Positions 222-64,000 of a DNA stretch of 64,000 bases are shown in pieces. The notes beneath the pieces were generated by a model. The model was not told where the DNA came from and searched no databases. It worked only from the letters and a program-made list of their open reading frames with translations. A program made the translations under genes and the position numbers. Origin of the DNA: an uncultured Bacteroidales bacterium (lineage in GTDB: Bacteria > Bacteroidota > Bacteroidia > Bacteroidales > WCHB1-69); NCBI GenBank assembly GCA_905233625.1, contig CAJOFJ010000020.1, positions 23,408-87,407 of the forward strand. The letters are read 5' to 3'. Numbering within the stretch: the stretch's first letter is position 1; the number at the start of each line of letters is the position of its first letter.

Positions 222-365
222 GCGTGAAGGCGTGAAGACATGCACTTCGTGCATTCGTTAAGACGACATTCTGTTTTTTCCGCCTTCACACCTCCACGAA
301 CGAGCGAAGCGAGTGTCTTGACGAACGAACAGAGTGAGTGTCTTCACGTCTTAACATCTCCACGT
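222..365. repeat. Composite 8-bp/25-bp hairpin repeat array (locus R1), abutting the ftcD stop codon
   Basis: GCGTGAAG octamers, ATGCACTTCGTGCAT (240-254), then inverted units GAACGAGCGAAGCGAGTG and GAACGAACAGAGTGAGTG. Confidence 0.85.
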
Positions 366-2063
366 TTAACCGATCACTTCCTCCACCTTCGCCATCAGAG
401 TAGTTTCGAGCTCTTTGGCTTTCACCACGTAGGCCTGGGCTTTGCTTACCATTTCTTCCGCAAAAGCCTTGTCCTCCAAGCTAGAGGCATTGATTTTCAC
501 GTTCAGGTAAGCACCCATGACGGCAGCGCGGGCGCACAACACACCAACACCGGCATCGGTCACAGAGTTCGGATTGCCCTTTTCAATCATGGCAGCGCAA
601 AGCTCAAACACGTCGAAGCTGCGTTGGATAGTCTTATAAGGCACCTCGATAGCATATTTGGTAGCATCTTGGATAGCCTGCTTGCGAGCAGCCTTCTCGG
701 CATCGTTGCCCTTGGGCATGCCAAAAGCTTCCATAATCAAATTGAAGGAATGGGTATCCTCATCCACCAGCCACAAGAGGTCGTCTTTGATTTTCTGACC
801 TTTTTCAGCCCATTGTGAGAATTCCTCCCAACGCTCGTCCCAACCGGGTTTGTGTGAGGACAGGTTGGCCACCATCGTACCCAGAGCGGCACCCAGGCTG
901 CCCATGTATGCGGAGATGGAACCACCACCAGGAGCGGGACTCTCGGAAGCGGTCTCGTTGGCGAAACCAGTGCAGGTCATGTCCATCAATTTCTCCGTCT
1001 TGTTGTCTTTCTCAATCAGATATTCAATCACCTTCTCTTCCGGAATGAAGGGTTTCAAATCGTCCAAGCCCATGGATTTGATAGCGATCTTGATGATTTC
1101 GGCCTCGTCGATACCCAATGAGCGCTGCTGTTTTCTCAAGAAATATTTACCAGCGTCAATCAAGGTTTTCTTGGGCACCAGTCCCACAATTTCCGTACCG
1201 GTCACGCGAATGCCGCGGGCGGCAGCTTTGTTGCAAACCTCCTCAAAAGCCACATGCAGCGGAGTGGTATTGGTATCGGTGATGTTCATAGATACCTGAG
1301 CCACACCGTATTCCTTGATGAACCAGCCGATAGCCTTGGTACCTTTCAACGTACCGGGAATATTAATCGGATTGCCATTCTCGTCTTTCATGATTTTGCC
1401 GGTAATCGGGTTACCCTCGCGTTTCGGACGGCCTTTCTCACGAACGTCGAAAGCGATGGCGTTGGCGCGGCGGGTGGAAGTGGTGTTCAGGTTGTAGTTC
1501 ACCGCGATGAGAAAATCACGGGCACCGATAGCGGAAGCACCGCTCTTGGCTACCTCTTCTGTGAACTCACACGGACCGAAATCGGGTTTCCATTCGGCGC
1601 TGGCGATACGCTCTTTCAGTGCCTCGTACTCGCCTTGACGGCAGTTGGCCAGATTACGACGTTTGGGTTCGAAAGCGGCGTTTTCATAGCAGAACACCGG
1701 AATGTTGAGTTCTTCGCCCACCTTCTTGGCTAATTTGCGAGCATATTCAGCGGTTTCTTCCATGGTGATGTTGGAAACAGGCACCAAGGGGCACACGTCG
1801 GTGGCACCGAAACGCGGATGATCGCCGTGATGGCCTCTCATGTCAATCAGTTCCTTGGCTTTGGCAATCACCTTGTAGGCAGTAGCCACCACTTCGTCGG
1901 GAGTGCCGACAAAAGTTACCACAGTTCTATTGGTGGTAAAACCCGGATCCACGTCCAGCAGCTTCACGCCTTCCGATTTTTCTATTTCATCGGTTATCTG
2001 TTTGATCAGGTCTAAATTACGACCCTCGCTGAAATTGGGAACACATTCAATTAATTGTTTCAT
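366..2063 (-). CDS. ftcD: Bifunctional glutamate formimidoyltransferase / formimidoyltetrahydrofolate cyclodeaminase
   Basis: N-terminal MKQLIECVPNFSEGRN formiminotransferase signature; C-terminal cyclodeaminase domain (ASESPAPGGGSISAYMGSLGAALGTMVANLS). Confidence 0.92.
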   Translation of the reverse strand: MKQLIECVPNFSEGRNLDLIKQITDEIEKSEGVKLLDVDPGFTTNRTVVTFVGTPDEVVATAYKVIAKAKELIDMRGHHGDHPRFGATDVCPLVPVSNITMEETAEYARKLAKKVGEELNIPVFCYENAAFEPKRRNLANCRQGEYEALKERIASAEWKPDFGPCEFTEEVAKSGASAIGARDFLIAVNYNLNTTSTRRANAIAFDVREKGRPKREGNPITGKIMKDENGNPINIPGTLKGTKAIGWFIKEYGVAQVSMNITDTNTTPLHVAFEEVCNKAAARGIRVTGTEIVGLVPKKTLIDAGKYFLRKQQRSLGIDEAEIIKIAIKSMGLDDLKPFIPEEKVIEYLIEKDNKTEKLMDMTCTGFANETASESPAPGGGSISAYMGSLGAALGTMVANLSSHKPGWDERWEEFSQWAEKGQKIKDDLLWLVDEDTHSFNLIMEAFGMPKGNDAEKAARKQAIQDATKYAIEVPYKTIQRSFDVFELCAAMIEKGNPNSVTDAGVGVLCARAAVMGAYLNVKINASSLEDKAFAEEMVSKAQAYVVKAKELETTLMAKVEEVIG

Positions 2064-15138: not shown

Positions 15139-16536
15139 ATGAATCCATTATTTAAAGCGGAAGTTTACCAGAACCGCCGCACCCAGTTGAAAAAAGCCGT
15201 GAAAAGCGGTATTGCCATCTTTTTAGGCAACAGCGAAGCCCCCATGAATTATCCTTCCAACACCTATAAATACCGTCAGGACAGCAATTTCCTGTATTTC
15301 TTCGGTCTCTCCATTGCCGACATCGCCGCCGTCATCGATTTTGACGAGAACCGCAACATCATTTTCGGCAATGACTTCGAGATTGACGACATCATCTGGA
15401 TGGGCAACCAGCCCACGCTGGCATCCTTGGCCGAGAAAGTGGGTGTGAAAGAGGTGATGCCCATGGCCAAGCTGAGCGAATACATCCATGCCGCCCAAGC
15501 CGCCGGCCGTCAAGTGCACTTCACCCCGCCCTACCGTGGCGACAACAAGATATGGCTGTCCAACCTCACTGGTATCAACGTGAACGACATCCGCAACCAC
15601 GCTTCGGCAGAACTGATCAAGGGTATCGTGAACCTGCGCTCCGCCAAGGAGGACTGCGAAATCGAGCAGATGGAGAACGCCTGCGAAATCGGCTATAAGA
15701 TGCACACCGCCGTGATGCGCCGCTGCGTGGCCGGCGTGCCCGAACTGGAGCTGGCTGGCTTGGCCGAAGGTATCACCCTGTCGTACGGCAATGGCGTGTC
15801 CTTCCCCATCATCCTGTCACAGCACGGCGAAACCCTGCACAACCACGGCCATGAAGCTATCCTGCAGGAAGGCAACATGCTGCTGATGGACGCTGGCGCC
15901 GAAAACCTGATGAACTACTGCTCCGACAATACCCGTACCCTGCCTGTGGGCGGCCGCTTCACCCAAAAGCAAAAGGAAATCTACGAAATCGTGCTGAAAG
16001 CCAACATGGACGCCATCGACGCTGCCAAACCCGGCGTGTATAACAAGGAACTGCATACGCTGTCCTGCAAAGTCATCGCCGAAGGCCTGTCACAGTTAGG
16101 CTTGATGAAAGGCGATGTGGATGAAGCCGTACGCCTAGGTGCCCACGCCCTGTTTATGCCCCACGGTTTAGGCCATCAGTTGGGCTTGGACGTGCACGAC
16201 ATGGAAGACCTCGGCGAGAACTTCGTCGGCTATGATGAAACTGTGAGCCGCAGCGACATCTTCGGTTGGAGCGCCCTGCGTATGGCCCGCGAGCTGAAAC
16301 CCGGCTTCATCGTGACCATCGAACCGGGCATCTATTTCATCCCGCAACTGATTGACATCTGGAAAAACGAACACAAGTTCGAGCAATTCATCAACTACGA
16401 CAAGGTGGAGCAATACCGTGACTTCGGCGGCATCCGCATCGAGGACGACCTGCTGATTACCGCCGACGGCCACAAAGTGCTCGGCCCCGCCATCCCTAAA
16501 ACCCCGAAGGAGCTGGAGGAGATTATAGGGAAGTAA
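15139..16536 (+). CDS. pepP: Xaa-Pro aminopeptidase (M24B, aminopeptidase P)
   Basis: NSEAPMNYPSNTYKYRQDSNFLYFFG N-terminal domain; MDAGAE...HGLGHQLGLDVHD...EPGIYF M24 metal-binding motifs. Confidence 0.92.
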   Translation: MNPLFKAEVYQNRRTQLKKAVKSGIAIFLGNSEAPMNYPSNTYKYRQDSNFLYFFGLSIADIAAVIDFDENRNIIFGNDFEIDDIIWMGNQPTLASLAEKVGVKEVMPMAKLSEYIHAAQAAGRQVHFTPPYRGDNKIWLSNLTGINVNDIRNHASAELIKGIVNLRSAKEDCEIEQMENACEIGYKMHTAVMRRCVAGVPELELAGLAEGITLSYGNGVSFPIILSQHGETLHNHGHEAILQEGNMLLMDAGAENLMNYCSDNTRTLPVGGRFTQKQKEIYEIVLKANMDAIDAAKPGVYNKELHTLSCKVIAEGLSQLGLMKGDVDEAVRLGAHALFMPHGLGHQLGLDVHDMEDLGENFVGYDETVSRSDIFGWSALRMARELKPGFIVTIEPGIYFIPQLIDIWKNEHKFEQFINYDKVEQYRDFGGIRIEDDLLITADGHKVLGPAIPKTPKELEEIIGK

Positions 16537-16761
16537 CGGGAAGACGGGGAGACATGCACTGCGTGCATTCGGGAAGACGTACACTACGTGTACTCGGGGA
16601 GACGGGAAGACGGATAGACGATATCGTATAACCGAGTGAACGAAGTGAACGTCTCCTCGAACGAGCGTAGCGAGTGACTTCCCGAGCGAATGAAATGAGC
16701 GTCTCCCCGAGCGAGCAAAGCGAGCATCTCCCCGAGTGAGCAAAGCGAACGACTTAACGTA
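16537..16761. repeat. Composite 8-bp/25-bp hairpin repeat array (locus R2), filling almost the whole pepP-ackA gap
   Basis: Two contiguous + 25-mers (16552-16576, 16577-16601), octamers, centre ATAGACGATATCGTATAACCG, then five contiguous inverted 25-mers. Confidence 0.9.
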
Positions 16762-16782: not shown

Positions 16783-17982
16783 ATGAAAGTATTAGTACTC
16801 AACTGCGGAAGTTCGTCAATCAAATACCAGCTGATTGACATGGCCAACAATGCCGAATTGAAAGCTAAGGGTTTGGTAGAACGTATCGGCTTGGAAATGG
16901 GTGAATTCACCCACAAACCTGTCGGCAAGGACAAATATTATGTACAGACCCCTATCAAAGACCATGAAGTAGGTGTCAACTTAGTGCTGAAAGCCCTGAC
17001 CGACCCCGTTCACGGTGTCATCAGCGACCTTAACGAGATTGGAGCGGTAGGTCATCGTGTGGCTCACGGCGGCGAATATTTCAAGAAAAGCATGATTTTG
17101 GGCGAGCAAGAACTCGAAGAAATCAAGAAACTGTGTGAGTTGGCACCCTTGCATAATCCCGCCAGCTTACTGGGTATCAAGGTGATGCAGAAACTTCTGC
17201 CCAATGTGAAACATGTGGGCGTTTTCGACACCTCTTTCCATCAGACCATGCCGGCAGAAGCTTATCTGTATGCTATTCCTTACGAATACTATACCAATAA
17301 TAAGGTGAGACGCTATGGTTTCCACGGCACCAGCCATAAATATGTGGGTCCTAAGGCTGCCGAAATCGCTGGCGTGGATTACAACAACTCCAAAATTATC
17401 AGCTGCCACTTGGGTAACGGCGCTTCCATCTGCGCCATCAAGAACGGCAAGTCTGTGGACACTTCCATGGGTTTCACCCCTGTTGAAGGTTTGGTGATGG
17501 GTACCCGCTGCGGCGACCTTGACCTTGGCGCCCTGATTTACATTGCTGAAAAGGAAAACATGGACTTCAAAGCCATGAACACTTTCATCAACAAGAAATG
17601 CGGTTTGCTCGGTATTTCCGGCAAGAGTGTGGACATGCGCGATATCCGCGCCGGCAAGGACAGCGGCGACGAGCGCTCCAAATATGCTTTCGACATGTTC
17701 GCTTACAGAGTGAAGAAATATATCGGTGCATACGCCGCTGCCATGGGTGGTGTGGATGTCATCCTTTTCACCGGCGGTATCGGCGAGAACGCTTGGTTCC
17801 AGCGCGAAGCCATCTGCCAAGGACTTGAATTTCTGGGCTGCACCCTTGACAAGGCCGAAAATGAGAGACTGGCTGGTCAGGATGGTATTATCTCCACTCC
17901 CGACTCCCGCGTGAAACTCGTTTCCGTCACCACCAACGAAGAGTTAGTGATCGCCACGGATACGTATAATCTCGTGAAGTAG
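16783..17982 (+). CDS. ackA: Acetate kinase
   Basis: MKVLVLNCGSSSIKYQLID; FDTSFHQTMP; HLGNGASICAIKNGKSVDTSMGFTPVEGLVMGTRCGDLD; FTGGIGENA. Confidence 0.97.
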   Translation: MKVLVLNCGSSSIKYQLIDMANNAELKAKGLVERIGLEMGEFTHKPVGKDKYYVQTPIKDHEVGVNLVLKALTDPVHGVISDLNEIGAVGHRVAHGGEYFKKSMILGEQELEEIKKLCELAPLHNPASLLGIKVMQKLLPNVKHVGVFDTSFHQTMPAEAYLYAIPYEYYTNNKVRRYGFHGTSHKYVGPKAAEIAGVDYNNSKIISCHLGNGASICAIKNGKSVDTSMGFTPVEGLVMGTRCGDLDLGALIYIAEKENMDFKAMNTFINKKCGLLGISGKSVDMRDIRAGKDSGDERSKYAFDMFAYRVKKYIGAYAAAMGGVDVILFTGGIGENAWFQREAICQGLEFLGCTLDKAENERLAGQDGIISTPDSRVKLVSVTTNEELVIATDTYNLVK

Positions 17983-18108
17983 CGTGAAGGCGTGGAGACA
18001 CTCGCTTTGCTCGTTCGTGGAGGCGTGAAGACGTGAAGACGTGAAGACGTGAAGACGTGGAGACGTGGAGGCGTGGAGGCGTTAGTGTGTTCATTAATGT
18101 CTTCACGC
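17983..18108. repeat. Composite hairpin/octamer array (locus R3) with ACGTGAAG tandem octamers
   Basis: 25-mer ACACTCGCTTTGCTCGTTCGTGGAG (17998-18022) followed by eight octamers at 18023-18086. Confidence 0.9.
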
Positions 18109-19648: not shown

Positions 19649-19777
19649 ATGCGTTAAGGCGTGGAGACGTGAAGACATGCACTGTGTGCATTCGTTAAGA
19701 CGACATTTTGTTATTCATCTTTAACGTCTCCACGAACGAGCGAAGCGAGTGTCTCCACGTCTTAACGCCTTAACGTC
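19635..19777. repeat. Composite hairpin/octamer array (locus R4) between convergent aroB and the DUF4301 gene; extends into the aroB 3' end
   Basis: TCGTAGAG|GCGTAGAT|GCGTTAAG|GCGTGGAG|ACGTGAAG|AC-ATGCACTGTGTGCAT...; inverted GAACGAGCGAAGCGAGTG. Confidence 0.88.
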
Positions 19778-21268
19778 CTATCTTTTCAACAAATCAAACA
19801 CCGTCTTCACGGGATTGAAAGTAGCCAAGGGAACCTCAACAAACACGGTAATCCAATACGCCATAGCGCCATTCCACAAGCCAGGAAGCTCCATGGCCTT
19901 GAGGCTGCGGTCGCCATACGATTTCGAGGAGATAAAGCCCTTGGTTTCATCCACATAATCTTTCAGATTAAAGAACTCGCCTTTGTAATTGCGGAAAGCG
20001 CATACCATATCCACCGGGTTGAAATGCGTGGCCTGGCGGGCAATTTCCATCTGCTCAGTATCTTTGGCATCCATCTGCGACGACTCCACAATCTGCAAGC
20101 TTTCCATCTCATCATCAATAACCCAGAACGGACCACCTCCCGGTTCGCCTTCATTTTTTACCATACCGCACACGCGGATAGGACGATTCATCTTCTCGTA
20201 TAAGGCCTCGGGAGTCGGGTCATCATCCACATTGATCATCAGTTCGGTGGAAGCAAAATCCAACATCTCGCACAAGTCCATATCATCCACTTCTCCTGCT
20301 TCGATTTTTTTCAGGTAATAAAAAGTTTTATTCTGTAATTCTATCAGATAAGAGGCCAAGGCTTTCTTATAGGTGAAGGTAATGTCGGCCTTATCTTCTG
20401 TAATCACATTATCTATATTTTTGACAAAAACGATATCCGAATGGATATTGTTCAGATTGCCAATCAACGCTCCGTGACCACCCGGGCGGAACAACAATTC
20501 GCCCTTTTCATTACGGAAAGGCGTATTGTCCAATTCTGCTGCCAAGGTATCGGTGGAAGGATGCTGGATGGAATAAGAAATGTCGTATTTCACGCCGAAA
20601 CGCTCCTCATATGTGGGAAGCACCCTGGCTAACAACTGCTCAAAGCCCTGTTGGTGTTGCGGCGACACAGTGAAATGCAAGCGGCAGTTGCCCTGCTCAT
20701 CGCGGGCATACTGGGCAGCCTCCACCAAATGCTCTTCCACCGCAGTGCGGCAAGCATCCCCATATCGATGGAATTTCAGCAAACCCTTCGGCAAATTGCC
20801 GTAATTCAGTCCCTCTTTTTCCAGAATATAACGCACAATCAGCTTGTAATTCTGATACTCCATCTCATGCTCTATGGCATAGCCATCCTGGGCCATCGCC
20901 TTGCGCAGATCTTCGTAAAAAGCAAATTTTGGCAGTTTCGTCAAAAAAGCTTTCGCTTTCACAGCCATTTCCTCGCTATCATTTTCAAGATAGGAATACA
21001 ACTCCTTGAACATACGCGAAGCCGCTCCTGATGCCGGCACAAATTTGGTAACACTCTTACCTTCAATCAGATGCTCATAATCCGCTACCAAATCCTCAAT
21101 CTGCTCCTCCTCGAGACGTACGATACCGTCATCGATAGTGGCGGGGCGGTCCAAACACACAAATTTGAAACCGTTTTCAAAGAAAGAGAACTGGCGCTGC
21201 ACCTCATTGGGATTGCTGCCGCGGGCCTGAATGAATTGAATGTCTTCGGGGGTGAATTGGATTTTCAT
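19778..21268 (-). CDS. DUF4301 family protein
   Basis: MKIQFTPEDIQFIQARGSNPNEVQRQFSFFENGFKFVCLDRPATIDDGI...FVPASGAASRMFKELY...RPGGHGALIGNLN; internal Met start preferred over 21316. Confidence 0.85.
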   Translation of the reverse strand: MKIQFTPEDIQFIQARGSNPNEVQRQFSFFENGFKFVCLDRPATIDDGIVRLEEEQIEDLVADYEHLIEGKSVTKFVPASGAASRMFKELYSYLENDSEEMAVKAKAFLTKLPKFAFYEDLRKAMAQDGYAIEHEMEYQNYKLIVRYILEKEGLNYGNLPKGLLKFHRYGDACRTAVEEHLVEAAQYARDEQGNCRLHFTVSPQHQQGFEQLLARVLPTYEERFGVKYDISYSIQHPSTDTLAAELDNTPFRNEKGELLFRPGGHGALIGNLNNIHSDIVFVKNIDNVITEDKADITFTYKKALASYLIELQNKTFYYLKKIEAGEVDDMDLCEMLDFASTELMINVDDDPTPEALYEKMNRPIRVCGMVKNEGEPGGGPFWVIDDEMESLQIVESSQMDAKDTEQMEIARQATHFNPVDMVCAFRNYKGEFFNLKDYVDETKGFISSKSYGDRSLKAMELPGLWNGAMAYWITVFVEVPLATFNPVKTVFDLLKR

Positions 21269-21347: not shown

Positions 21348-21471
21348 CGTTAAGACATTCGCTTCGCTCATTCGTTAAGACGTTAAGACATGCACTGCGT
21401 GCATTCGTGAAGACGAAATTCGCCTCTACGTCTCCACGAACGAGCGAAGCGAGTGTATCCACGTCTTCACG
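21348..21471. repeat. Composite hairpin/octamer array (locus R5) between divergent genes
   Basis: ACATTCGCTTCGCTCATTCGTTAAG, ATGCACTGCGTGCAT (21390-21404), inverted GAACGAGCGAAGCGAGTG. Confidence 0.88.
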
Positions 21472-37182: not shown

Positions 37183-39096
37183 ATGTTTTTCCGAAACTAC
37201 CCTGTTCTGCGTTTGTTGATACCCTTTGCCTTAGGCATTGCAGGAGCTTATTGGTTACCACTTGAACTTTCAAAGACGCTTATTTTGTCGCTGATGATCG
37301 TCTGTTGGCTTGTTGCTTTGGCACTTCAGCATAAAAAGACCCTTACCACCACTCTTTTGTCCGGCATTTTCCTGCAGATTTTGTTCGTTCTTGCCGGCTT
37401 TTGCCTTACTTGTATCCACTTTCGGAACGACAATATGATTTCTTTCAGGAAAAACTTTGAAGAAAAACAAATTTTTATGGCCAAAATCATTGACCACCCT
37501 GTACCCAAAGCCAAAAGCTTAAAAGCCTTAGCGATTATAGAACAAAACACCGACAAACAAGCTATTGGCCAAAAGGCGGTATTGTATTTCGCCAAGGACA
37601 GTCTGCACCCACCCAACTATGGTGATGTGGTGCTTATTCATTCCAAAATATCAGAAATTGAAAACTCCAAAAATCCGTATGCTTTTGACTACAAAAAATA
37701 CATGCAGAGACGGGGAATTTTCTATACGGCATACATACCCGCTTCGGGATGGCAAAAAATTGGACAATTCAAGAAGAATCTGCTTCGGGATAAAACTTAT
37801 CGGATACAACATTATTTCTCCCAAATTTTTGCCGATGCCAGCATGAGCGGTGACGAATACAGCATCATCACTGCCATCCTGTTGGGCAACGACGAAACCA
37901 TGGAACCGGAGCTGAAAGCCAGCTATGCCTCCGCCGGAGTGAGCCATATTCTTTGCGTTTCGGGTATGCATGTGGGCGTGATTTTCATGATACTGAATTT
38001 TCTTTTACAGCCTTTGGACTACTCCAAACAACTACGACTGCTAAAAGCCGTTCTTCTGATGATTTTTATTTGGTTATATGCTTGTATCACAGGACTTTCC
38101 CCATCGGTAACCCGTGCTGCCACCATGTTTTCTTTTGTCACCATCGGAAATATGATGAGGCGCAATACCAATATTTTTCACAGTCTGTTTGCTTCACTTT
38201 TTATACTACTGATTATCAATCCTTTATTAATTTTTGAAATTGGATTCCAATTGAGCTATGCAGCAGTATTCGGCATAGTAATTTTTCAGCAAAAATTGGT
38301 AGAATTATGGGAGCCCAAAAGCAAAATTATCAACTATTTTTGGAACCTCATTACAGTGTCGGTTGCCGCGCAATTGGCCACTTTTCCTTTGTCGGTTTAC
38401 ACATTTGGGCAATTCCCAAATTATTTTCTTTTGGCAAACCTTTCCGTTATTTCGTTATCATTTTTGGTGGTGGTCAGTGGGGTGTGTCTGCTGGCGGTGT
38501 CTTTTATTCCCATAGTATCCTCTTGGATAGCTTGGCTATTGACCCGTGAAATCAGGCTGATGAACTTTCTAATACAATCCATCGAGAAGCTGCCGGGATC
38601 AGTCACGGAAAACATTAGTATTTCTTGGGTACAAATGTTGTTGATTTATCTGTGTATCATTGCTTTCTATTTATTATTCTTGAAAAAGAAGAAATTATAT
38701 TACTGGCTGGGGTTTTCATCTCTTTTGTGTTTAATTCTTTTCTTTGATTTTGACAAATATTATACACAACATATTGAAAATCAAACTATTTACAAACTGT
38801 CCAAAGGAATGGCGGTCAGTTTCAATTATCATGGCAAAGCCGTAATTTTCAGCGATTCTATCCGTGACAAAAAACATCCGGATTACGCTTTTTGCATCAA
38901 AAACCATGAGCGAAAAGAGCGGATTGAAAGTGTTATTATTTCTCTCGACAGCAATTATCAGAATGAATTTTTGCTGAAAGAAAAGGATTTTGTAGTTTTT
39001 GACGGAAAGACCTACCAGCTGATTCGCCGGAAACGTCGGCACTCCCCTACCAGCAACAAAATAGCCGTTGACGAGATGATTTTTCTGAAAGATTAA
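37183..39096 (+). CDS. ComEC/Rec2 family competence protein
   Basis: LRLLIPFALGIAGAYWL; SVTRAATMFSFVTIGNMM; polytopic; GVSHILCVSGMHVGVIF. Confidence 0.88.
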   Translation: MFFRNYPVLRLLIPFALGIAGAYWLPLELSKTLILSLMIVCWLVALALQHKKTLTTTLLSGIFLQILFVLAGFCLTCIHFRNDNMISFRKNFEEKQIFMAKIIDHPVPKAKSLKALAIIEQNTDKQAIGQKAVLYFAKDSLHPPNYGDVVLIHSKISEIENSKNPYAFDYKKYMQRRGIFYTAYIPASGWQKIGQFKKNLLRDKTYRIQHYFSQIFADASMSGDEYSIITAILLGNDETMEPELKASYASAGVSHILCVSGMHVGVIFMILNFLLQPLDYSKQLRLLKAVLLMIFIWLYACITGLSPSVTRAATMFSFVTIGNMMRRNTNIFHSLFASLFILLIINPLLIFEIGFQLSYAAVFGIVIFQQKLVELWEPKSKIINYFWNLITVSVAAQLATFPLSVYTFGQFPNYFLLANLSVISLSFLVVVSGVCLLAVSFIPIVSSWIAWLLTREIRLMNFLIQSIEKLPGSVTENISISWVQMLLIYLCIIAFYLLFLKKKKLYYWLGFSSLLCLILFFDFDKYYTQHIENQTIYKLSKGMAVSFNYHGKAVIFSDSIRDKKHPDYAFCIKNHERKERIESVIISLDSNYQNEFLLKEKDFVVFDGKTYQLIRRKRRHSPTSNKIAVDEMIFLKD

Positions 39097-45900: not shown

Positions 45901-46711
45901 GCCCAAAACCGACAAGGTGAAAGTGATCATTCCCGTATTTCCGGGCAGCAACTGCGATTACGACACCGCCAAGGCCTTCAAAGACGCTGGCGCAGAACCC
46001 GAAATCTTTGTCTTCCGCAACCTGAACGAGATTGAAATCAACAACTCTATCAATGAGTTAGCACAAAAGATTGACAATGCTCACATTTTGGCATTGTGCG
46101 GTGGTTTCAGCTCCGGTGACGAGCCCGACGGCAGCGGCAAGTTCATTGCCAATGTGCTGAACAACGAAAAAGTCAAGGCCGCCATCGAAAAACTGATGGA
46201 TCGTGACTGCCTGATTTTAGGTATTTGCAACGGTTTCCAGGCATTGGTGAAATCAGGACTGCTGCCATACGGCAAAATCGGCCAGGTGACGGCAGACTCT
46301 CCCACCCTGTACCGAAACGACATCAACCGCCACTTGTCGCACATCACCAAGACGGTGGTGGCTTCCAACCATTCACCCTGGCTCAGCTCCTTCAAAGAAG
46401 GCGAGGTTCACCGTGTGGCCATCAGCCATGGCGAAGGCAAGTTTGTGGTGTCGGAAAAGATGGCGCAGGACTTGTTCGCCAACGGCCAAGTTGCCTTCCA
46501 ATACTGTGATTTCAAAGGACATGCCAGCATGAACAAGTACGACAATCCCAATGGCTCCAGCTATGCAATCGAGGGTATCGTGTCCAACTGTGGACGCATC
46601 CTCGGTAAGATGGGACACAGCGAACGCAAGGGCGAGAACCTGTACAAGAACATCCCCGGCAACAAGACGCAGGACATTTTCAGCAATGCGGTGAAATACT
46701 TTTTGAATTAG
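42983..46711 (+). CDS. purL: Phosphoribosylformylglycinamidine synthase
   Basis: TYWSDHCRHTTFET; FKNETHNHPTEIEPFGGAATCVGGAIRDPLSGR; C-terminal GATase VFPGSNCDYDTAKAF; internal Met start (MNKTLNARLFVEKK). Confidence 0.97.
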   Translation: MNKTLNARLFVEKKAGFQVEAQDLLDDLNHNLELKINKLRLIVVYDIFGIEEELLEKAKKAVFSEPVTDEVYTDFPLDGLTYFAVEFLPGQFDQRADSAMQCLQLIDPKTKATIRSGKLIVMEGSLSEQDIVKIKKHCINEVEAREKDMSILDDSENVTVADVEIFNTFNDMKAEELDAFRQKLSLAMSFEDILLIQNYFKNEEKRNPTETEIKMLDTYWSDHCRHTTFETQLDNITFTPSSFNSQLQEAFYQYIQIRNNVHGGRKPITLMDMATICGKNERKLGNLDDMEVSEENNACSVFVDVDVDGKIEKWLLMFKNETHNHPTEIEPFGGAATCVGGAIRDPLSGRSYVYQAMRVTGAGNINEPVSQTMEGKLPQRVISKSAAAGYSSYGNQIGLATTHVREIYHEGYKAKRLEIGAVVGAVPADGVRREQPQPGDIIIMFGGRTGRDGIGGATGSSKEHTEASLEVCAAEVQKGNAPEERKIQHLFRKPEVTRLIKKSNDFGAGGVSVAIGELADGLLINLDAVKTKYKGLNGTELAISESQERMSVVVDPKDVDQFFEYCRQENIEATIIAKVTDNNRLTIQWRGKNIVDLSRDFINTNGYRQRTDVVIPKIEGEFPMRVPEASANQAITTENVAKHLASPNVASQKGLIEMFDSTIGASTVLMPFGGKHQLTESQAGVQKLPVLHGHTNTASILAFGYNPYIASFSPFHGAIYAILESMAKIVAVGGDYKKIRFTFQEYFEKLGKDTTKWGKPFAALLGAVYMQNAFHLPSIGGKDSMSGTFKKLNVPPTLVSFGIVTEKADKVISPEFKQKGNHIYLIHNVIDDNHRPNIERVKQIFDFVHEQIHAGKIISCYTLQFGGIIEALCKMSFGNDLGFDIHTNLPVFDYGYGSFVVETNEKLDFEYAVELGCVSDKFIINGAEIDKAKCLAAWRGTYDAIYPEVKINSESMPKVEAQNAKVMRRELHPPKTDKVKVIIPVFPGSNCDYDTAKAFKDAGAEPEIFVFRNLNEIEINNSINELAQKIDNAHILALCGGFSSGDEPDGSGKFIANVLNNEKVKAAIEKLMDRDCLILGICNGFQALVKSGLLPYGKIGQVTADSPTLYRNDINRHLSHITKTVVASNHSPWLSSFKEGEVHRVAISHGEGKFVVSEKMAQDLFANGQVAFQYCDFKGHASMNKYDNPNGSSYAIEGIVSNCGRILGKMGHSERKGENLYKNIPGNKTQDIFSNAVKYFLN

Positions 46712-46745
46712 CAAATTAGTTAATTAGTTAATGTGCTAATGAATT
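46706..46745. repeat. AATTAGTT octamer array beginning in the last codons of purL
   Basis: AATTAGCA|AATTAGTT|AATTAGTT|AATGTGCT|AATGAATT; the first TAG is the purL stop. Confidence 0.8.
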
Positions 46746-46749
46746 AAGG

Positions 46750-46858
46750 AGGGGGAGTCTCGCACTGCGTGCTCAAGGGGAGTGAACTTCGTCCATAGGG
46801 GAGTCTCGGGCTGCGCCCTCGAGGGGAGTTTTGCTATGCTCAAGGGAAGATGTTAATG
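46750..46858. repeat. GGGGAGT hairpin repeat element (copy 1)
   Basis: GGGGAGTCTCGCACTGCGTGCTCAAG, GGGGAGTGAACTTCGTCCATAG, GGGGAGTCTCGGGCTGCGCCCTCGAG; near-identical to 61996-62075. Confidence 0.88.
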
Positions 46859-46870
46859 TGCTAATTAAAT

Positions 46871-49489: not shown

Positions 49490-49570
49490 ACGAAAATTGT
49501 GGGGAAATGTGATGGTTTAGCATTTTTTTCCGTGGTTGCAATCATGACAAATCCTTCCACAAATTTTCGT
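49490..49570 (-). promoter_or_regulatory. Candidate SAM-II/SAM-V-like riboswitch in the metK 5' leader
   Basis: Minus strand ...GTGGAAGGATTTGTCATGATTGCAACCACGGAAAAAAATGCTAAACC... resembles the SAM-II core (AUUU...UUGCAA...GAUAAA...GCUAAA); sits between a -7 element and metK. Confidence 0.55.
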
Positions 49571-49666: not shown

Positions 49667-49880
49667 CGTGAAGACGGAGAGACGTTCACTGCGTTCACTC
49701 GGGAAGTCACTCACTGCGTTCGTTCGAGGAGACGCTCGCTTTGCTCGCTCGGTTATACGATTTTCCTCTCCCCGTCTCCCCGTCTCCCCGAATGCACGTT
49801 GTGCATGTCTTACCGAGTACACGAAGTGTACGTCTAACCGTTCAACCGAATGCACTTCGTGCATGACTTACCTTCTCGAC
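49667..49880. repeat. Composite 8-bp/25-bp hairpin repeat array (locus R6)
   Basis: GTTCACTGCGTTCACTC, ACTCACTGCGTTCGTTC, GCTCGCTTTGCTCGCTC, centre CGGTTATACGATT, CGTCTCCC octamers, ATGCACGTTGTGCAT (49792-49806), GTACACGAAGTGTAC (49817-49831), ATGCACTTCGTGCAT (49850-49864). Confidence 0.9.
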
Positions 49881-61963: not shown

Positions 61964-61991
61964 AATTAGCAAATTAGTTAATTAGCAAATG
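61964..61991. repeat. AATTAGCA/AATTAGTT octamer array
   Basis: AATTAGCA|AATTAGTT|AATTAGCA|AATG, 3 nt after the GNAT stop. Confidence 0.75.
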
Positions 61992-61995
61992 AAGT

Positions 61996-62075
61996 AGGGG
62001 GAGTTTCGCACTGCGTGCTCAAGGGGAGTGGACTTCGTCCATAGGGGAGTCTCACTTTGTTCGAGAGGAGAAGGG
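61996..62075. repeat. GGGGAGT hairpin repeat element (copy 2)
   Basis: GGGGAGTTTCGCACTGCGTGCTCAAGGGGAGTGGACTTCGTCCATAGGGGAGTCTCAC, close match to 46750-46858. Confidence 0.88.
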
Positions 62076-62090
62076 CATTCACCCCAATAA

Positions 62091-63770
62091 TTATTCCATC
62101 AACTTCTTATAATGAATACGCTTGGGTCCTTCGTTGCCTAAGCGTTTCTTTTTGTTCTCCTCGTATTCGGTGTAGCTGCCTTCGAAGAAATATACCTGCG
62201 ACTCGCCTTCAAAGGCCAGAATGTGGGTGCAGATGCGATCAAGGAACCAGCGATCGTGGGAAATAACCACCGCACAGCCGGCAAAGTCGTCCAAAGCCTC
62301 TTCCAAAGCCCGCAGGGTGTTCACGTCAATGTCATTGGTGGGCTCGTCCAACAAGAGCACATTGGCTTCCGATTTCAAAGTGAGTGCCAGGTGCAAACGG
62401 TTGCGCTCGCCACCCGATAACACGCCTGTTTTCTTGCTTTGGTCGGTGCCGCTGAAATTAAAGCGCGAAATATAGGCTCTGGAGTTGATTAAACGTCCGC
62501 CTAAAGTAATTTGTTCATTTCCTTCCGAAACCACCTCCCAGACCGTTTTTTCAGGGTCTATGGAGCTGTGTTGCTGGTCTACATACCCCAGCTTGACCGT
62601 ATCACCTACCCTAAAACTGCCGCTATCAGGCTGCTCCAAGCCCATGATGAGGCGGAAGAGGGTGGTTTTGCCTGCACCATTGGGACCGATAACGCCCACA
62701 ATGCCATTAGGCGGCAGGTTGAAGTTGAGGTTTTCGAAGAGCAATTTGTCGCCGTAAGCTTTCGAAACATTCTGGGCTTCGATTACCTGGTCGCCCAAGC
62801 GTGGACCATTGGGAATGAAAATCTGCAGTTTCTCCTCTTTTTCCTTCACATCCTCGTTCAGCAATTTGTCGTAGGCGTTCAAACGGGCTTTTCCCTTGGC
62901 TTGACGGGCTTTCGGGGCCATGCGCACCCATTCCAATTCGCGCTCTAAGGTTCTCCTGCGCTTGGACTCCTGTTTCTCTTCCATGGCGAGACGGTTGGTC
63001 TTCTGTTCCAGCCAAGAGGAATAGTTACCTTGCCAAGGAATACCTTCTCCGCGGTCCAGTTCGAGGATCCAGCCAGCCACATTGTCCAAGAAATAACGGT
63101 CATGGGTGACGGCAATAACGGTACCCTTATACTGCTGCAGGTGCATTTCGAGCCACTGTACAGACTCGGCATCCAAGTGGTTGGTAGGCTCGTCCAGAAG
63201 CAAGATATCGGGCTCTGACAACAGTAGGCGGCACAGGGCCACACGGCGGCGTTCGCCTCCCGATAGGTTTTGGATGGGGGTGTCACCTTCGGGGCAGCGC
63301 AGGGCGTCCATGGCGCGCTCCAGCTTGGAGTCCAGTTCCCAAGCGTCGTGCTGCTCGATGAGTTCGGTCAGCTCTCCCTGGCGCTCGATGAGTTTGTTCA
63401 TCTCGTCGTCGCTCATGGGCTCCATGAACTTCATGTTCACCTCCTCATATTCTTTCAGGATATCCACCACTTCCTGCACACCTTTCATCACCTCTTCCTT
63501 CACGGTGAGATTGTCGTCGAGCTGGGGTTCCTGGGGCAGATAGCCCACAGAATAGCCAGGCGAGAAAACCACTTCGCCCTGGTAGGACTTGTCGAGGCCG
63601 GCGATGATTTTCAGCAAGGTGGACTTGCCCGCGCCATTCAATCCCAATACACCGATTTTCGCTCCGTAAAAGAACGAAAGGTAGATGTTTTTCAATACTT
63701 GTTTCTGGGGCGGGATAATCTTACTCACGCCCACCATGGAGAAGATGATTTTTTTGTCGTCGATAGCCAT
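62091..63770 (-). CDS. ettA: Energy-dependent translational throttle protein EttA (ABC-F ATPase)
   Basis: Two ABC domains (GLNGAGKSTLLKI, LSGGERRRVALCRLLL, GPNGAGKTTLFRL, LSGGERNRLHLALTL) and EttA-type start SMVGVSKIIPPQKQVLKNI. Confidence 0.93.
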   Translation of the reverse strand: MAIDDKKIIFSMVGVSKIIPPQKQVLKNIYLSFFYGAKIGVLGLNGAGKSTLLKIIAGLDKSYQGEVVFSPGYSVGYLPQEPQLDDNLTVKEEVMKGVQEVVDILKEYEEVNMKFMEPMSDDEMNKLIERQGELTELIEQHDAWELDSKLERAMDALRCPEGDTPIQNLSGGERRRVALCRLLLSEPDILLLDEPTNHLDAESVQWLEMHLQQYKGTVIAVTHDRYFLDNVAGWILELDRGEGIPWQGNYSSWLEQKTNRLAMEEKQESKRRRTLERELEWVRMAPKARQAKGKARLNAYDKLLNEDVKEKEEKLQIFIPNGPRLGDQVIEAQNVSKAYGDKLLFENLNFNLPPNGIVGVIGPNGAGKTTLFRLIMGLEQPDSGSFRVGDTVKLGYVDQQHSSIDPEKTVWEVVSEGNEQITLGGRLINSRAYISRFNFSGTDQSKKTGVLSGGERNRLHLALTLKSEANVLLLDEPTNDIDVNTLRALEEALDDFAGCAVVISHDRWFLDRICTHILAFEGESQVYFFEGSYTEYEENKKKRLGNEGPKRIHYKKLME

Positions 63771-63786: not shown

Positions 63787-63985
63787 ACGTGTATTCGCTC
63801 ACTTCGTTCGCTCGAGGAGACACTCGCTGCGCTCGTTCGGTAAGACGCTCATTTCATTCGCTCGGGTAGTCGTTCGCTGCGCTCGTTCGGATATACGATT
63901 ATAGCTTTCTCGTCTTCCCGTCTTCCCGAGTACACGTCAGTGTACGTCTCCTCGTCTCCCCGAATGCACGCAGTGCATGTCTTCC
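63787..63985. repeat. Composite 8-bp/25-bp hairpin repeat array (locus R7)
   Basis: GCTCACTTCGTTCGCTC, ACTCGCTGCGCTCGTTC, GCTCATTTCATTCGCTC, GTTCGCTGCGCTCGTTC, centre CGGATATACGATT, CGTCTTCC octamers, GTACACGTCAGTGTAC (63930-63945), ATGCACGCAGTGCAT (63964-63978). Confidence 0.9.
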
Positions 63986-64000
63986 CGCTTCAGTTATTCA

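Follow-up and report, generated by a model that had tools for sequence, protein, structure and literature searches.

Covarying 17-nt inserts in two-armed intergenic arrays of a rumen Bacteroidales genus: a proposed new kind of REP-like mobile hairpin DNA

Introduction

Close to the end of the 64,000-nucleotide stretch of Bacteroidales DNA analysed here (referred to as the window), an array carries 17-nt inserts whose sequence changes from copy to copy with conserved pairing. This locus raises the question of whether the inserts are selected or recognised as a folded single strand, as a preliminary description had proposed, and of what kind of element they would be part. That description considered the insert in isolation and missed the two-armed element that carries it. 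On balance, the reading favoured here is that the inserts are hairpin modules of a small non-coding dispersed element of the REP/BIME/REPIN kind, possibly processed by a Y1 (HUH) transposase. The element is apparently REP-like mobile hairpin DNA of a new kind.

Pairing and covariation of the 17-nt inserts

The recurrence of the inserts in the window (about 28 according to the preliminary description) was borne out, with 27 hairpins parsed at seven intergenic sites; the array at 63789-63986 is one of them. Throughout the genome to which the window belongs (G000), the insert pattern gave 98 matches, a number in keeping with a high-copy extragenic palindrome, and the same pattern reversed, used as a control, gave none. 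When inserts were anchored on the flanking 8-mers alone, ignoring pairing, their lengths peaked at 8, 17, 25, and 33 nt, which indicates a modular grammar of 8-nt links and 17-nt inserts.

Covariation was analysed in 62-64 distinct inserts (205-211 copies) collected without selection for pairing. In the distinct 17-mers, 236 of the 248 cells formed by columns 1-15, 2-14, 5-11, and 6-10 are paired; 5000 permutations of the 3' halves gave 149±7 (maximum 175). A pair-counting tool applied to columns 1-2/14-15 and 5-6/10-11 of 64 distinct inserts found 97.3% of the cells paired (79.8±1.3 in shuffles) and a covariation score of 0.735 (0.380±0.027 in shuffles), while sliding the alignment by 1-3 columns left at most 41% paired. 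Among the 20 distinct stems there are 17 pairs whose two members are separated by a single compensated base pair, and all six positions of the stem are covered by such differences. The covariation anticipated for these columns is thus far above both shuffles and slides. One detail requires amendment: complementarity at 5-6/10-11, described as invariable, holds almost always. The insert GTTCGCTGCGCTCGTTC (63872-63888) contains two wobbles, G1.T15 and T2.G14, and a colinear element at another locus (L132) has GCTCGC/GCTCGC in its place.

Columns 3-4/12-13 behave differently. Among 62 distinct inserts the dominant states are TC/TC (31) and GC/GC (17); GT/AC (four), AC/GT (three), and TC/GA (three) are minor, and TT/TC (three) and GC/AC (one) also occur. 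The TC/TC mismatch is thus a conserved feature in its own right. The loop is mostly TNC, as had been stated, which is GNA on the opposite strand: its ends are T.C in 42/62 distinct inserts (175/205 copies) and T.T in 14/62. In a second amendment to the description, about 11% of the copies have TNT loops. Most inserts thus present, on one of their strands, a GNA triloop with a C-G or G-C closing pair. Examples of these hairpins are GCTCACTTCGTTCGC, ACTCGCTTCGCTCGT, and ATGCACTTCGTGCAT.

Hairpin variants of 18 nt with a 4-nt loop (GTACACTGACGTGTACTC type) are found repeatedly beside the 17-mers (window 63930-63947; L005, L086, and L123). Two palindromes at 38236 and 47866, which have no 8-mer context, were discarded as chance occurrences.

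A two-armed inverted element

The inserts are part of a larger unit, in which 8-mers (GNNNAGAC) and hairpins are followed by a short centre and then by the reverse complement, giving a two-armed inverted element. Parsed into units, an element consists of E and EH, a centre (e.g., GAAATTC or GATATC), and the opposite-orientation e and he, each hairpin being embedded in the context AGAC-hairpin-TCG. The two arms are not alike. In about 97 of 111 two-armed elements, one arm is of the Watson-Crick type and its partner of the TC/TC type, although some of the arms counted also contain a hairpin that could not be classified; TC/TC hairpins occupy both arms in three elements, and Watson-Crick hairpins do so in none. 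Unlike hairpin types in opposite orientation within one element are a feature of BIMEs.

The elements of the window are listed in Table 1. The main one lies just upstream of a gene for an ABC-F-type ATPase (62091-63770, -). The end of the window, which is also the end of the contig, falls inside the flank of this element, and another contig of the same assembly (C30) shares a 99-nt overlap with positions 63902-64000 and continues the site, so that the two contigs are adjacent at the repeat. The element at 16538..16758 takes up the spacer that separates a peptidase-like gene (stop at 16536) from the gene for acetate kinase (start at 16783), and the one-armed member begins right after the acetate kinase stop codon.

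Table 1. Repeat elements of the window, related features, and loci used for comparison
Feature	Position or locus	Strand	Content
Main element	63789..63986	.	Four TC/TC hairpins (+) at 63797, 63822, 63847, 63872, with 8-mer links
Main element, centre	about 63889-63911
Main element, 3' of centre			Links, 18-nt hairpin GAGTACACGTCAGTGTAC, Watson-Crick hairpin 63962-63978 (-)
Element	16538..16758	.	One arm with two Watson-Crick hairpins; other arm with five TC/TC hairpins
Element	49668..49880	.	One arm with three TC/TC hairpins (+); centre; other arm with three Watson-Crick hairpins (-)
Element	224..371	.	Watson-Crick hairpin 240-256 (+); TC/TC hairpins 298-314, 323-339 (-)
One-armed member	17984..18081	+	One TC/TC hairpin 18000-18016, plus 8-mer run
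Element	19653..19790	.	Watson-Crick hairpin 19677-19693 (+); TC/TC hairpin 19734-19750 (-)
Element, divergent gene gap	21349..21470	.	TC/TC (21357) and Watson-Crick (21390) hairpins (+); TC/TC 21438-21454 (-)
Second, related family	46706..46866	.	AATTAGYN 8-mers around AGGGGAGT links; read by eye
Second family, further copy	61964..62070	.
SAM-II riboswitch	49507-49566	-	60.6 bits (Rfam RF01726); some 100 bp away from element 49668-49880
Short-unit inverted arrays	Window 46706-46866, 61964-62070; L185, L186, L240-L242
Y1 loci, genus	L039-L041, L159-L183
Y1 loci, other genera	L249-L273

A second family at 46706..46866 forms short hairpins with TNY loops, e.g., GCAC-TGC-GTGC and GGGC-TGC-GCCC, some of them with TC/TC beside the stem. 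This AGGGGAGT family (window 46750-46860; L242) shares TNY loops and TC/TC steps with the 17-mers, and its stems are different.

Distribution and turnover

Of nine genomes belonging to a single rumen Bacteroidales genus, seven carry the element. A first sample of 51 other genomes yielded only single chance matches, and a stricter pattern yielded none in 294 other genomes of the order. All the contig matches listed belong to metagenome-assembled genomes of uncultured Bacteroidales or Bacteroidetes, mostly labelled rumen or abomasum.

Within the genus, orthologous gaps differ in their contents. Between pepP and ackA, G000 carries one element and G003 a different one, G001 has a AATTAGCA-type array, G005 and G008 hold a repeat that also flanks Y1 genes (CCACACTGCGC..), and G004 and G007 show a short plain spacer. 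The site beside the ABC-F gene holds the main element in G000, another element in G001 and G003, a different repeat family in G005 and G008, and none in G004 and G007. Sites of G005 matched in G008 (flank identity 79-99%) nearly all lack an element there or hold a different one. Colinear relatives with 84-92% identity occur at unrelated sites across species; positions 63797-63978 of the window match L132 with 90.7% identity over 193 bp, with no match of the flanks where these could be compared. These site differences, together with the colinear relatives elsewhere, indicate movement or exchange of whole elements, which would not be recent. Elements of the same genome show best long matches of about 70-83% and no near-identical pair, so that no recent copy is seen. 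Neither a target-site duplication nor a precise excision scar could be demonstrated at the element sites.

The intergenic gaps of the genus also hold several unrelated short-unit inverted arrays (AATTAGCA, TTAAGAACTA, AATTCAAC, and AGGGGAGT plus hairpin), which replace one another at orthologous sites.

Change in orthologous copies

A set of 87 hairpin pairs from orthologous places, with both 8-mers aligned, was used to follow recent change. Per-site change is 1.0% in the stem columns and 1.7% in columns 3-4/12-13, and it rises to 2.5% in the conserved letters of the 8-mers, 8.8% in 8-mer positions 2-4, and 13.8% in the middle of the loop. No single-pair compensatory change was found among these 87 hairpins; the seven one-sided stem changes left a G.T pair on the T-rich strand in four cases and on the GNA strand in three. 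A wider set yields 17 double Watson-Crick changes; the hairpins concerned show differences at several pairs, which is what replacement by other members of the family would produce. According to these data, the stems are constrained, yet much of the diversity between sites reflects the copying of existing stem types. The objection that a fixed set of sequences, spread by copying, might explain all the variation is therefore correct in part, given the whole-hairpin replacements and the lack of one-pair compensations.

These data bear on a first alternative, in which the arrays would not be mobile at all: they would grow by slippage of the 8-nt unit, and their pairing would be kept up by templated (quasi-palindrome) correction and by copying between arrays, with no dedicated protein. 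Such a process would account for the number of 8-mers, which differs between orthologous copies, for the other short-unit inverted arrays (AATTAGCA, TTAAGAACTA) that occupy the same gaps, for the double stem changes being mostly whole-hairpin replacements, and for the rare TC/GA variants, which resemble corrected TC/TC. However, correction should erase TC/TC, which is nonetheless the commonest state and changes slowly, and neither the opposite hairpin types of the arms nor the colinear relatives at unrelated sites are predicted by it. We regard this alternative as unlikely, although not negligible.

Gene context and folding

The examined elements are intergenic; eight were called inside genes, mostly in short chance reading frames and a few in longer frames. 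In many cases only a few bases separate the element from a preceding stop codon, and its other end comes close to a start codon, a placement that would suit elements acting at the RNA level, as hairpins of 3' or 5' untranslated regions involved in transcription termination or mRNA protection, and the constraint on the stems would also fit RNA. Several observations run against this idea. Among 121 elements with two called neighbour genes, 83 lie between tandem, 20 between convergent, and 18 between divergent genes, and those in tandem gaps adopt both orientations with respect to the genes (28 vs 19). No curated Rfam match was obtained at the elements (a SAM-II riboswitch and a tRNA are the sole matches in the window), the hairpins were not seen to be followed by a T-run, and the one-sided stem changes show no strand preference. 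A function in RNA is accordingly considered quite improbable. A reading as intrinsic terminators was discarded on the basis of the divergent gaps, since the elements do not lie only downstream of genes.

Highly improbable is a third alternative, in which the inserts would be double-stranded sites for a nucleoid or regulatory protein reading alternating RY/TC, the palindrome reflecting a dimeric protein: the RY-TC-RY-TNC-RY-TC-RY-TC periodicity of the TC/TC inserts and a variable copy number like that of operator arrays would suit it, but the dinucleotides of the stem change without restriction as long as they remain complementary, whereas base-specific readout would lead to the reverse.

Folding of one strand, which the favoured REP-like reading implies, is less clear in energetic terms. 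The preliminary description had pointed to GNA triloops and tandem G.A steps as features of unusually stable hairpins, and modelling lent this no support for the hairpins with TC/TC, whose nearest-neighbour folding energy is about -0.1 kcal/mol as DNA and -0.3 to -0.6 as RNA in models that may under-score GNA loops and tandem G.A; these energies do not demonstrate a stable fold of the GNA strand. Predicted energies were also discarded as a means of picking the folded strand, the differences being too small to favour either one. Wobble pairs reveal no strand bias, either in the distinct inserts or in the close orthologues. The proposal of selection on, or recognition of, a folded single strand consequently gains from the family-level covariation, the constraint on the stems, and the GNA triloops beside Y1 genes described below, and loses from the scarce predicted stability of the TC/TC hairpins and the unbiased wobbles.

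Y1 transposase genes and their flanking hairpins

Three Y1_Tnp genes are encoded in G000. Nearly all classifiable Y1 proteins of the genus hold the motif YxxxQxxHH, the signature of TnpA subclass 1.2, a subclass found mostly in Cyanobacteria and Bacteroidetes and described without REPs (PMC6006769). The flanks of Y1 genes were scanned within 700 bp for hairpins that have a triloop and a stem of 6 bp or more. At 28 loci of the genus, GNA-type triloops outnumber all others (92 vs 19), while control loci show the reverse (47 vs 282), and base-shuffled flanks give about nine triloops, fewer than one of them GNA. At least two of these hairpins, which are mostly GNA-type, are present in 18 of the 28 loci, and Y1 loci from other genera of the same family show 50 GNA triloops against 30 others. 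This enrichment beside Y1 genes makes recognition of a GNA loop more plausible.

Subclass 1.2 Y1 genes are therefore flanked by REP-like GNA-triloop hairpins, although the subclass was reported without REPs. Two of the Y1-flanking repeats, read by eye, show an unpaired TGC/TTG step in the middle of the stem.

A cognate Y1 gene flanked by 17-mers was sought and rejected, as none of the 28 genus loci has a 17-mer array within about 1.5 kb. For this reason, the identity of the enzyme is one that we infer, and the 17-mer family would depend on a Y1 enzyme acting in trans or on a different protein. Two genomes of the genus without the element still carry Y1 genes.

Proposed mechanism

The favoured REP-like reading supposes that one strand of the two-armed array folds when it is single-stranded or when it is extruded by negative supercoiling. 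The folded strand would line up minihairpins, each with a TNC/GNA triloop, and those of one arm would have an internal mismatch fixed as TC/TC (GA/GA). The element would be maintained and dispersed by a DNA-processing protein that reads the hairpin, the loop, and the mismatch; the likeliest candidate is a Y1 (HUH) tyrosine transposase akin to the TnpA subclass 1.2 enzymes of these genomes. Instability of perfect long palindromes is perhaps the reason why the arms are unlike. Several results weigh against mobility of the REP type: the lack of 17-mers at the 28 Y1 loci, the persistence of Y1 genes in element-free genomes, the absence of recent copies within a genome and of duplications or scars at the sites, the barely stable TC/TC hairpins, and the orientation of the elements, which shows no association with the GC skew of the surrounding DNA, itself a rough indicator of the direction of replication.

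A more specific version, which we consider possible but doubtful, is that subclass 1.2 Y1 enzymes read GNA-triloop hairpins with a fixed unpaired step in the middle of the stem. The GA/GA 17-mer would be the smallest such site, contained in 8-nt/17-nt arrays that are mobilised in trans and compete for the intergenic slots of the genus, and this would represent an undescribed class of single-stranded DNA recognition. If the REP-like reading is right, it would suggest which class of substrates is handled by Y1 subclass 1.2 enzymes, known from Bacteroidetes and Cyanobacteria. The family would also be a naturally occurring collection of stems that compensate one another and share a conserved mismatch, useful for testing recognition of single-stranded DNA.

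Comparison with known systems

No description of this element was found in the literature on Prevotella, Bacteroidales, or rumen repeats. Its closest counterparts are compared here one by one. Like the REP/BIME sequences of Enterobacteria (y, z1, and z2; TnpA_REP/RAYT), the elements are dispersed extragenic imperfect palindromes in opposite orientations, with two hairpin types per mosaic, a conserved mid-stem mismatch, and a distribution limited to a species or genus. In contrast, they have a 6-bp stem, a GNA/TNC triloop, arms in which 8-nt links join as many as six hairpins, and no flanked Y1 gene; the 5' GTAG/GTGG tetranucleotide that stands beside the hairpin in the GTAG REP/RAYT system (REPtron) is absent. 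The mid-stem mismatch of the E. coli REP must remain unpaired for TnpA_REP (PMC8266576), and the conserved TC/TC step parallels it by analogy. The element resembles the REPINs of Pseudomonas in its two inverted arms around a spacer, which may be its unit of dispersal (colinear relatives lie at unrelated sites across species, yet no near-identical pair was seen within one genome), and it differs from them in lacking linkage to a RAYT and in having arms of far more variable length.

The CGTC-tagged REPs (including dRS3 of Neisseria), a superfamily that includes some Bacteroidetes (PMC3733652), also form inverted dimers, with heterodimers favoured in several families and no flanking transposase gene, but the element has no CGTC tag, a stem of 6 instead of 8-9 bp, and a loop of 3 instead of 4-5 nt. 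Many REP families prefer dimers of unlike repeats over homodimers for an unknown reason (PMC3733652); the unlike arms described here agree with this heterodimer rule and may avoid perfect long palindromes. Under the REP-like reading, REP-type mobile hairpins would be extended to a minimal form, with a 6-bp stem and a 3-nt loop.

Outside the REP world, the RNA polymerase of phage N4 reads a supercoiling-extruded DNA hairpin with a 3-nt loop and a sheared G:A closing pair (PMC4496689). The early promoters of this phage resemble the inserts as short DNA hairpins with a 3-nt loop, the closure by a sheared G:A pair and the reading by a protein after extrusion being features of N4; they differ in being promoters of a phage RNA polymerase, and no common descent is implied. 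If the REP-like reading is right, the purine-rich DNA loop motif of biophysics and phage N4 would be tied to HUH transposases.
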